Assembly: GCA_902618025.1 (NCBI GenBank)
Contig: CACMYY010000005.1
Location: 1-64,000 of the forward strand
Length of the DNA stretch: 64,000 nt
From: an uncultured SAR116 cluster alpha proteobacterium
GTDB taxonomy: Bacteria > Pseudomonadota > Alphaproteobacteria > Puniceispirillales > Marisalimonadaceae
Direction: 5' to 3'
Shown piece after piece: positions 40,251 to 53,720 of the stretch. Each line of letters begins with the position of its first letter. Position 1 is the first letter of the stretch. The notes beneath the pieces were generated by a model. It made no database searches. It saw only the letters and a list, made by a program, of their open reading frames with translations, and was not told the origin of the DNA. Position numbers and translations under genes: made by a program.

Positions 40251-41000
40251 CTAAGGTAATTTGATTATATTATCTAAAAATTCTTTAGTAAAATTTTTCT
40301 TGATAATTTTTATGTTTCTCCAACCTAAACTCTCTGCTTTTTTAGCAACATTTTCACTATTAACATATAAAGTTGCTTTATTTTTAACAATGTTGAATAA
40401 ATTGTAATTTTCTAAAATTTGTTTTGCAATTGATACATTTCTTGACGAAAATATGACTAAATTTAAGAAATCATATTCAATTAAATCCGTACGCAAAAGC
40501 TTTGGTAATTCTAAAATTGGATGGGTGCTATAACCTTCGATAATTTTTATTTTTCTGTTGTTATTCAATAAATTTTTTTCAAATTCAACACTTCTATTTT
40601 TAGCAGCAATCCATAAACCATAATCTTCTTTTTTAGTGTTAATTACAATTAAGTTATGTAAAGATTGAGAACTATTATTGGCTTGTAAAATATTAGTATA
40701 AGATAATTTTTTCAATTGATATGTGGTTTCAAATCCTACAGAAAAAATTCTTATGTCTTTAGAGAAATTGCCAATTTTTTCTAATATTATCTTTTCAAGA
40801 ACTTTTAATGCTTTAGGACTTGTTATAATAATATAATTAAAATCATTTTGAGAAATATTTAAGCTTTTAAAATCTTCATATTTTAATTTTGTTATAGGAA
40901 ACGGTTTTGAAAAAAAACCATTATCATTTAGATATTGTGAATTCCTTTCAGCGTCTTTTTTTTCTCGAAGGACAAAAGTTATTGTTTTTGATTTTTTAAT
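40251..41000 (-). CDS. hemD: Uroporphyrinogen-III synthase, probable ATT start
   Basis: ORF-track call 40251..40715 extended upstream in frame by 95 codons: IKKSKTITFVLREKKDAERNSQYLNDNGFFSKPFPITKLKYEDF...NYIIITSPKALKVLEKI...RIFSVGFETTYQL; AAGGAG 7 nt before ATT. Confidence 0.82.
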   Translation of the reverse strand: MKKSKTITFVLREKKDAERNSQYLNDNGFFSKPFPITKLKYEDFKSLNISQNDFNYIIITSPKALKVLEKIILEKIGNFSKDIRIFSVGFETTYQLKKLSYTNILQANNSSQSLHNLIVINTKKEDYGLWIAAKNRSVEFEKNLLNNNRKIKIIEGYSTHPILELPKLLRTDLIEYDFLNLVIFSSRNVSIAKQILENYNLFNIVKNKATLYVNSENVAKKAESLGWRNIKIIKKNFTKEFLDNIIKLP

Positions 41001-41024
41001 CCATCAACTCCTTGTTTAATGAAG

Positions 41025-41939
41025 TTATTTAAATAAAAAGTCACCGTTAGTTTGAGCTTTAATTTTATTTCCTAACTCTTTACCTAACTTAATTGCGTCT
41101 TTAATCGATCCTTTAATTTTAGATCTAATTACTCTCGTACCATCTAAAGTTGCAATTGCTCCATACAATATCAATTCTTTAGTGTCGGTAAAATGTGCGC
41201 TTGCTGAAATTGGAGATCTACAAGAACCATCTAAAGTATTTAATAGACTTCTTTCAGCTAAAGTTTCAAAAAAAGCCCTTTCATCGTTAATTTTATTTAA
41301 GGTCATCTTTAATTGTTTTTGATATTGATTATTACCATTTGTAATAGATTGAATTGCAATAACACCTTGAGAAGATGCTGGAGGAATAATTTCATTCGGA
41401 ATTATGTTACCAACGTTAATATTTAACCTATCCAAACCTGCTTTGGCTAATATAATTGCATCATATAATCCAGAGTTTAGCTTTTCAATTCGAGTTTCAA
41501 CGTTACCTCTCAGAATCTTTATGTTTAAATCAGGCCTATAATATTTAGCAAAAGCAGCTCTTCTTACAGAACTTGTTCCCACAATTGCTTTATCTGGCAA
41601 ATTATCGAATGAATCATAATTTCCTAACAATACATCACTCCTATCACCTCTTGGAAGGACAGCTGAGATTTCAGTATTTTTTGCAATATCTGTTTCCATA
41701 TCTTTCATTGAGTGAACAGCGATGTCTGCAAATCCATTTAAAATAAAATATTCTAATTCCTTAATAAAAAGACCCTTACCTCCAATGTCAGATAAAGGTT
41801 TATTTAAAATTTTGTCCCCTGATGTAGTAACTTTAATAATTTCAGTTTCAACATCTTCTCCAAAATAACTTTTAACAATATCTACTTGTCGTAAAGCGAG
41901 TTCTGATTTTCGAGTAGCAATTCTTATTTTAAGTGTCAT
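41025..41939 (-). CDS. hemC: Hydroxymethylbilane synthase (porphobilinogen deaminase)
   Basis: RIATRKSELALRQVDIV, HSMKDMETD, GSCRSPISA. Confidence 0.97.
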   Translation of the reverse strand: MTLKIRIATRKSELALRQVDIVKSYFGEDVETEIIKVTTSGDKILNKPLSDIGGKGLFIKELEYFILNGFADIAVHSMKDMETDIAKNTEISAVLPRGDRSDVLLGNYDSFDNLPDKAIVGTSSVRRAAFAKYYRPDLNIKILRGNVETRIEKLNSGLYDAIILAKAGLDRLNINVGNIIPNEIIPPASSQGVIAIQSITNGNNQYQKQLKMTLNKINDERAFFETLAERSLLNTLDGSCRSPISASAHFTDTKELILYGAIATLDGTRVIRSKIKGSIKDAIKLGKELGNKIKAQTNGDFLFK

Positions 41940-51822: not shown

Positions 51823-51879
51823 TTCATAAAAACACAGAAATTCTTGCATATTATTGTTATTTATAACATATATATTTGT

Positions 51880-51967
51880 GAAGGGTCACACGGACGTAAT
51901 TCTTGCCAATCCGGTCAGGTCCGAAAGGAAGCAGCCGTAACAATGATAGCGGGTTGTGAGGCCCTTC
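51880..51967 (+). ncRNA. ffs: Small bacterial SRP RNA (4.5S type)
   Basis: GGTCAGGTCCGAAAGGAAGCAGC conserved core; closing helix gaaggg...cccttc; classical position upstream of dnaX. Confidence 0.95.
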
Positions 51968-52004
51968 GTTTTACTGATTATAAACGAGATATCAAATAAA
52001 TAAT

Positions 52005-53720
52005 ATTAATGAACAAAACAATTATAGAGTTTTAGCTCGTAAATATAGACCAAATGATTTCAGTGAATTAATTGGACAAGACACACTAGTCAAAACTTTT
52101 AATAACGCTCTTAACAAAGGCAGATTAGCTCACGCATTTCTCTTAACTGGTATAAGAGGTGTTGGGAAAACTACTACAGCAAGAATAATAGCTAAAGCTT
52201 TAAATTGTATTGGTGATGGCAGTAAAAAAGATCCCTCTTTTGAAATTTGTAATAATTGCTCACCGTGCAAATCCATAAATAATGGAAATTTTCTTGATGT
52301 CATTGAGGTTGACGCCGCTAGTAGAACTGGAGTTGATGGCATAAGAGAAATAATTGACTCTGTTATATATTCACCAAATAATGCAAGATACAAGGTTTAC
52401 ATTATAGATGAAGTTCATATGTTGTCTAACGCAGCATTTAATGCTCTTTTAAAAACCCTAGAAGAACCCCCACAAAATGTTAAGTTCATTTTTGCAACAA
52501 CTGAAATAAAAAAAATACCAGCAACAATAGTTTCAAGATGTCAAAAATTTGATCTTCAAAGAGTTGATTTAAAAACATTATCAAATCATTTAAAAAACAT
52601 TTGTCAAAATGAAAGCATTTCTTATGAGAATGATTCTATCTCACATATTTGTAAAGCAAGTGAAGGATCTGTAAGAGATGCTTTATCGTTACTAGATCAA
52701 GCAGCATCTCTGTGTGGCGACGATATTAAGGAACAAACAGTCTTAAATATGCTTGGATTAAATGGTTATGAAAAAAACATTGAATTGTTTGAACTATGTT
52801 TATCAAATCAATGTAGCGAAGCTTTAAAAGTTTATGATGATATTTTACAAAATGGTGTACAACCACTTCAAATCATCTCAAATCTTTTGGAAATAAGTCA
52901 TTTAGCATCAAAAATTAATGTTATAAAATCAGACATTAATATGACTGAGTCGATCCGGAAAAAAATTTCTGAAATTTCTACAAATGGGTTACCTAAACTT
53001 GTTAGATTATGGCAAATTTTAATTAAAAGTTTTGAAGAATTAAAATATGCTCCTAATGAGGAACAAGCTGGTTCAATGGCAATAATAAAATTATGTTATG
53101 GATCATCACTTCCAGATCCAAGTAAATTTTTAGAAAAAATATCAGAGCAAACAAATACTCAATCAGAGGATAAACAAACTAAAGTTTCTGAGATTACAAA
53201 CTCTAAAGAAAAAACGATTAAAGAAAATACAACCAATTATAAAGAAGAGAAATCAGAAAATGATCAAACTAAAGTTTCTGAGGCATCACATTCTCAAGAT
53301 AAGTTAAACAAGGAAATTATAGTTAATAATGAAGAAAAAACAGAAAATTTCAAAAATCCTGAATCTTTTGAAGATTTGTTAGATTTACTTTTAAAAAACA
53401 GAGAATCTCTGCTCCATGCTCAATTGATCAATAATGTTTATTTAATATCTTTTGAAGAAAGTAGTATAAAGCTAAGGTTAAAATTCAAATCTGATACAGA
53501 AATTCTAAGAAATTTATCTTCCACATTAGAAAAAATAACAAAAAATAAATGGAATGTTACCCATTCTGAGGAAGATGGAGAAAAAACAATAGTTGAAAAA
53601 CAAAATATTAAATTGCATGAGCAGAAAGAACAAATAAAAGCTAATCCTCATTTTGCAGAAGTATTTAAACATTTTCCTCAGGCTGAGATAACTTCAATTG
53701 AAGATAAAAAATCAAATTAA
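52005..53720 (+). CDS. dnaX: DNA polymerase III subunit gamma/tau, non-canonical start (probable ATT)
   Basis: ORF-track call 52419..53720 extended upstream in frame: NYRVLARKYRPNDFSELIGQDTLVKTF...LLTGIRGVGKTTTARIIAKALNC...CNNCSPCKSI...EVHMLSNAAFNALLKTLEEPP. Confidence 0.9.
   Translation: MNEQNNYRVLARKYRPNDFSELIGQDTLVKTFNNALNKGRLAHAFLLTGIRGVGKTTTARIIAKALNCIGDGSKKDPSFEICNNCSPCKSINNGNFLDVIEVDAASRTGVDGIREIIDSVIYSPNNARYKVYIIDEVHMLSNAAFNALLKTLEEPPQNVKFIFATTEIKKIPATIVSRCQKFDLQRVDLKTLSNHLKNICQNESISYENDSISHICKASEGSVRDALSLLDQAASLCGDDIKEQTVLNMLGLNGYEKNIELFELCLSNQCSEALKVYDDILQNGVQPLQIISNLLEISHLASKINVIKSDINMTESIRKKISEISTNGLPKLVRLWQILIKSFEELKYAPNEEQAGSMAIIKLCYGSSLPDPSKFLEKISEQTNTQSEDKQTKVSEITNSKEKTIKENTTNYKEEKSENDQTKVSEASHSQDKLNKEIIVNNEEKTENFKNPESFEDLLDLLLKNRESLLHAQLINNVYLISFEESSIKLRLKFKSDTEILRNLSSTLEKITKNKWNVTHSEEDGEKTIVEKQNIKLHEQKEQIKANPHFAEVFKHFPQAEITSIEDKKSN

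Follow-up and report, generated by a model that had tools for sequence, protein, structure and literature searches.

Our analysis concerns hemD, the gene for uroporphyrinogen-III synthase, in an uncultured SAR116 alphaproteobacterium, and indicates that it is initiated, probably weakly, at an AUU codon, as one case of a lineage habit of starting genes at ATT, ATC or ATA (ATH); we give this reading as a whole a probability of roughly 0.85. Its parts differ in strength. Comparison of related genomes makes AUU very likely the start codon, a lowering of HemD expression by this start is probable, and control through initiation factor IF3 as the function for which the AUU was selected is offered tentatively. 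The gene lies in the window, by which we mean the whole stretch of 64,000 nucleotides that was analysed, and which represents contig C5 of a 1.55-Mb, 65-contig, 75%-complete draft genome (G000). The features of the locus are as follows.

40251 to 41000, minus strand: hemD (uroporphyrinogen-III synthase), 249 codons from ATT to TAG, matching PF02602 with E=6.6e-16 over profile positions 6-220
40253 to 40251, minus strand: hemD stop codon TAG
40998 to 41000, minus strand: ATT, very likely the hemD start codon, the same in 19 genomes of the clade
41008 to 41013, minus strand: Shine-Dalgarno sequence (SD) AAGGAG of hemD, 7 nt before ATT, the same in 19 genomes
41004 to 41006, minus strand: TGA in the hemD frame, read directly, which ends the open frame two codons before ATT
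40996 to 41004, minus strand: out-of-frame mini-ORF ATG GAT TAA, overlapping the hemD start, with its ATG at 41004-41002
41025 to 41939, minus strand: hemC (porphobilinogen deaminase), upstream of hemD, with PF01379 and PF03900
41027 to 41025, minus strand: hemC stop codon TAA, 24 nt before the hemD ATT

Direct reading of the minus strand bears out the frame anatomy described in the first-pass annotation, in which a TGA lies upstream, no early NTG codon is present, and an SD is followed after 7 nt by ATT; the in-frame context is TGA TGG ATT. The out-of-frame ATG at 41004, which had been described as quickly stopped, does read ATG GAT TAA and stands only 3 nt from the SD. The earliest in-frame NTG is TTG 40715 at codon 96, which leaves 95 codons without ATG, GTG or TTG, and this is where a mechanical gene caller places the start. 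Translated from ATT, HemD scores 58.6 bits against PF02602 (family cut-off 27.5 bits), covers profile positions 6-220 of 231 and contains both halves of the HEM4 domain, against 27.0 bits and positions 90-220, with the N-terminal part missing, when translated from TTG 40715. The segment between the two codons includes the tryptic peptide NSQYLNDNGFFSKPFPITK, and codons 2-95 have a median dN/dS of 0.33 in 18 comparisons, which indicates that they are under purifying selection.

The junction comparison covered 19 genomes of the window's clade (the window and 18 relatives) with a complete hemC-hemD junction; the junction of L009 ends at a contig end and agrees as far as it is present. The relatives' records, entitled 'uncultured SAR116 cluster alpha proteobacterium isolate AG-...', are by their name presumably single-cell genomes. 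In all 19 genomes AAGGAGTT is followed by ATTAAAAAAT, with no insertion or deletion between the SD and ATT; hemD is 249 codons long, and once 250, and the variable positions of the junction all fall outside the SD and start. It had been suggested that one extra G in the assembly might hide a normal start, and indeed a single deletion in what is a draft assembly would restore an in-frame ATG (ATG ATT AAA or ATG GAT AAA). This is contradicted by the 18 separately assembled relatives, which share the same spacing and letters: none of the 19 clade genomes is one base shorter between SD and ATT, and the proposed alignment of orthologous junctions yielded no clade genome in which one base fewer brings an ATG into frame. 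The candidate hidden ATG is moreover mutated in three relatives, to GTG in L012, AGG in L015 and ACG in L017, and in a second clade ATT directly follows a TAG stop, so that a sequencing or assembly error has next to no probability.

The same comparison bears on whether hemD starts elsewhere, be it at TTG 40715, which is the standard choice of gene callers, at an ATA at codon 7, by a frameshift after the out-of-frame ATG, whose mini-ORF overlaps the ATT, or by read-through from hemC. Codons 2-95 are conserved as protein and required for the HEM4 domain, which argues against the TTG. The mini-ORF ATG is not conserved, being lost in the three relatives named above and absent in the second clade (L024-L027), and is thus not the real hemD start; frameshifting from it was rejected on these grounds. 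The hemC-hemD spacer varies in length and contains stops, and L007 and L011 carry a 1-nt deletion upstream of the hemD SD, which shows that hemD need not keep the hemC frame; with the frame changed in these two loci and stops intervening, read-through was rejected as well. A fixed optimal SD distance holds for ATT only, and a start at any of the other sites is in our estimate very improbable.

More distant members of the genus, whose HemC is 64-69% identical, retain the hemC-hemD order, which is maintained across the genus, and extend the comparison. Loci L024, L025 and L027 read AAGGAG TTTTAG ATT, in which a TAG stop immediately precedes ATT and the spacer is 6 nt, while L026 reads AAGGAG TTTTAT ATT with the same spacer and has an extra in-frame ATG 15 nt upstream of ATT, which counts against an ATT start. 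The earlier proposal that hemD starts at ATT is thus supported by SD-7 nt-ATT in 19 genomes and SD-6 nt-ATT in a second clade, an agreement beyond chance. The equivalent place is occupied by TTG in L022, L023 and L101 and by ATG in L028, and in the members of other families that were compared (L029-L032) hemD apparently starts at ATG. A hemC tree, from which a strict motif removed eight rows and which is used here only for the separation of the ATT clades, places the TTG and ATG members between the two; this implies that ATT was gained twice, or was gained once and lost.

The hemD start had been presented as an oddity, and unusual it is, but this view proved too narrow, as other conserved ATH starts occur in unrelated genes of the same genome. 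A scan of 1.39 of the 1.55 Mb of the window's genome, which ignored SDs and looked for genes whose coding signal reaches well beyond the first in-frame NTG on its upstream side, gave 34 candidates among 1292 genes. Many of these were weak, and the best were read in relatives. In a pccB-like carboxylase (G000:C11 8881, L164) the arrangement AAGGAG-7nt is followed by ATC in 11 and ATT in 7 of 18 genomes, and never by NTG. In fabH (G000:C1 176809, L194), GGAG is followed after about 8 nt by ATT in 17 of the 17 genomes counted; the same column is ATG in family f3. In seven genomes a TRAP small permease (G000:C14 14273, L317) has ATC, ATA or ATT behind AAGGAG-7nt, with an altered SD in L323. For an ABC transporter (G000:C31 3054, L224) the window genome shows AGGAG-7nt-ATC, and G006 has ATA. 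The start of infC (at G000:C17), which encodes IF3, is ATA in the genus and across the order. Several of these ATH starts are followed, like that of hemD, by AAR-AAR-TC (IKKS), and at their third position T, C and A replace one another, whereas G never occurs.

Two further genes have no SD. For clpB (G000:C4 54446, L332), whose loci in relatives were found with an approximate ClpB query and then read directly, an in-frame NTG at the start is absent in 16 of 17 genus loci, and the conserved start block, ATA/ATT-GAY-AAY-TTA, points to a probable ATA or ATT start. The other is the second gene of the window without an NTG start.

51877 to 51973, plus strand: SRP RNA
51984 to 53717, plus strand: dnaX, beginning about 10 nt after the SRP RNA, with no NTG for 145 codons

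No NTG stands at the start of dnaX in 18 of 19 genus genomes, and the conserved genus block ACG AGA TAT CAA ATA AAT AAT ATT offers ACG, ATA or ATT as codons at which it may start; L249 has ATG for ACG. Processing of the SRP RNA from a shared transcript would leave the dnaX mRNA nearly leaderless. Since dnaX and clpB lack an SD, the ATH genes are not all of one mechanism. A reciprocal-best-hit comparison of starts, which is noisy because its alignments extend into 5' leaders, recovered hemD, dnaX, clpB and a possible EamA-type transporter (G000:C26 5067, plus strand); the last has no NTG near its start, likewise in G021 (IFNVIPIL / IFNIIPL), and may start at ATT. Three other suspicious loci, G000:C6 22343, C11 39033 and C13 21131, were not counted as ATH genes, being either unclear or probable frameshifts or pseudogenes. 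By their sequences, some six to eight genes of these genomes seem to start at ATT, ATC or ATA, and about 99% of genes keep NTG starts. In these alignments ATH starts are maintained within the SAR116 genus at hemD, pccB, fabH, the TRAP permease, the ABC transporter and infC, with clpB a probable further case.

In 400 kb of another member of the genus (G021) the same scan found dnaX and clpB, and in 400 kb of a genome of the same order and similar GC content (G044, family f3) it gave no convincing ATH gene. In the window genome 151 genes were scored with an SD of at least 5 nt before an NTG start and 985 without, and SD use is sparse genome-wide. Such an SD precedes 5 of 8 non-NTG genes and 151 of 1136 other genes (Fisher p=0.0018), a value that is only indicative because the eight genes are few and were picked after inspection; the excess fits a strong SD compensating a weak codon. 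Across all genes ATT is enriched 1.8-fold behind SDs, which is mostly noise, since most genes lack an SD.

Alternatively, start selection could be relaxed throughout the lineage and ATH starts simply tolerated, with no regulatory benefit, given strong SDs and an initiator tRNA with A29-U41 in place of a G-C pair. In favour of this, several unrelated genes carry ATH starts, T, C and A alternate at the third position in the pccB, TRAP and ABC genes, and the anticodon stem of the initiator tRNA has two G-C pairs, not three. The absence of ATG does little to argue otherwise: at fourfold sites with a non-G consensus, only 12-46% of columns show G in any of the genomes, and with G so scarce the lack of ATG starts is only weak evidence for selection and was set aside as proof of it. 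Because the third base drifts and the lack of G is statistically weak, a neutral, tolerated start is a serious alternative. Against it, the control family with the same initiator tRNA yields no convincing ATH gene in 400 kb, IF3 looks normal, infC too has kept its ATA, as an autoregulated gene might, and about 99% of genes retain NTG. We consider relaxed selection a real prospect, if short of an even chance.

In this order the initiator tRNA has the sequence TCAGG-CTCATAA-CCTGA (L305-L316), with A29-U41 followed by two G-C pairs; for the position numbers we assume the usual scheme, in which the common form has G29-C41. The E. coli initiator tRNA has three G-C pairs in the anticodon stem. Literature searches on these G-C pairs gave no result. 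The control family has an identical initiator tRNA (L305), which means that the tRNA change alone does not explain the ATH starts, and it was rejected as sole cause. Separately, 3' fragments of the initiator tRNA are clustered at G021:C1 81281-87350, G000:C4 40902-40954 and G009:C1 49342-59608, and look like attachment-site remnants of tandem integrated elements. The IF3 of the lineage aligns over its full length to an IF3 of known structure (the best PDB IF3 chain), with the whole C-terminal domain covered; this overall alignment gives no sign of a defective IF3, which was discarded as a cause. With IF3 apparently normal, discrimination against near-cognate codons should operate.

These data suggest a model for the initiation of hemD. 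The strong SD and the A-rich first stretch of the mRNA (AUU AAA AAA UCA) would place the initiator tRNA on the near-cognate AUU, with which it would pair at the first two bases only. The SD region, AAGGAGTTG, has a 6-nt core, and extended pairing towards the start codon, as at non-canonical starts of S. aureus, is not evident. HemD is probably needed in smaller amounts than HemC, a slow enzyme, so that a weak start would be affordable and perhaps favoured. On codons outside the set AUG, GUG and UUG, complexes are destabilised by IF3 (PMC5472188), which should discriminate against AUU; initiation would then be inefficient and the amount of HemD small relative to HemC. The first-pass annotation had likewise suggested that the rare start might keep HemD low relative to HemC or couple it to IF3 levels, a proposal in keeping with infC, sigR, cvfC1 and ccpN. 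In poor medium, AUU and AUA starts of S. aureus reach about 10% of the AUG level (PMC13009471). The benefit to the cell would lie in low or IF3-tuned expression.

Initiation could instead be coupled to termination, with a hairpin over the SD opening when ribosomes finish hemC and the AUU being used by reinitiation. The candidate element is the following.

41003 to 41027, minus strand: possible weak hairpin over the hemD SD, UAACUUC with GGAGUUG, 7 bp

In its favour, 95% of cells are paired and G-U replacements occur in L010, L012, L013 and L018. There are no compensatory changes, however, pairs are broken in L014, L016 and L021, and the fold z-score of the hairpin window is 0.09; for want of covariation support an SD-sequestering hairpin was rejected, and we hold termination coupling to be quite unlikely. 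Weak, SD-driven initiation at AUU remains our preferred model.

A more ambitious proposal is that hemD, pccB, fabH, clpB, infC, the two transporters and perhaps dnaX form an IF3-tuned set whose ATH starts are kept by selection. We think this unlikely; if true, the IF3 level would set heme, fatty-acid and carboxylase output together, and the set would be the largest in one bacterium known to us. Whatever their function, ATH starts are invisible to standard gene finders and make automatic N-termini wrong, hemD losing 95 residues at TTG 40715, and its start is a concrete correction for such programs. Six to eight ATH genes in one marine lineage are also a natural test set for the parts played by IF3, the SD and the initiator tRNA in start-codon choice. 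A literature search that missed most subscription journals found no report of hemD with an AUU start and none of ATH starts in SAR116, and to our knowledge only a handful of metabolic genes are known to have conserved AUU, AUC or AUA starts.

The class of near-cognate starts is itself already known, from infC, pcnB, sigR, cvfC1, ccpN and citZ. The gene for IF3, infC, starts at AUU in E. coli and at AUA or AUC in other bacteria. It shares with hemD a near-cognate AUH start behind an SD, a conserved non-NTG codon and a normal IF3, but hemD is a metabolic gene, which precludes autoregulation as in infC. The statement in the first-pass annotation that AUU is known mainly for infC was incomplete, as E. 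coli pcnB and S. aureus cvfC1 also use it. The AUU start of pcnB (Binns and Masters 2002, as cited in PMC13009471) is a case outside infC in which translation is limited by the start codon, as we propose for hemD, although gene, lineage and context differ. In S. aureus, cvfC1 (AUU) and ccpN and citZ (AUA) show several such genes in one genome (PMC13009471); they resemble hemD in having AUU or AUA behind a strong SD, and cvfC1 and ccpN are conserved among relatives, whereas the hemD SD appears to be a plain 6-mer. Streptomyces sigR has a GTC start repressed by IF3, which keeps SigR below RsrA (PMC5472188), and like hemD has its non-canonical start in one gene of a pair, where it sets the stoichiometry with the neighbour, as it may at hemD, with GTC in place of ATT. 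IF3 dependence has been shown for infC and sigR, and the S. aureus starts were measured by ribosome profiling and reporters, whereas the hemD start is deduced from sequence; by analogy with infC, pcnB, sigR, cvfC1 and ccpN, low expression from a weak, SD-driven start against which IF3 discriminates is the likely outcome at hemD.
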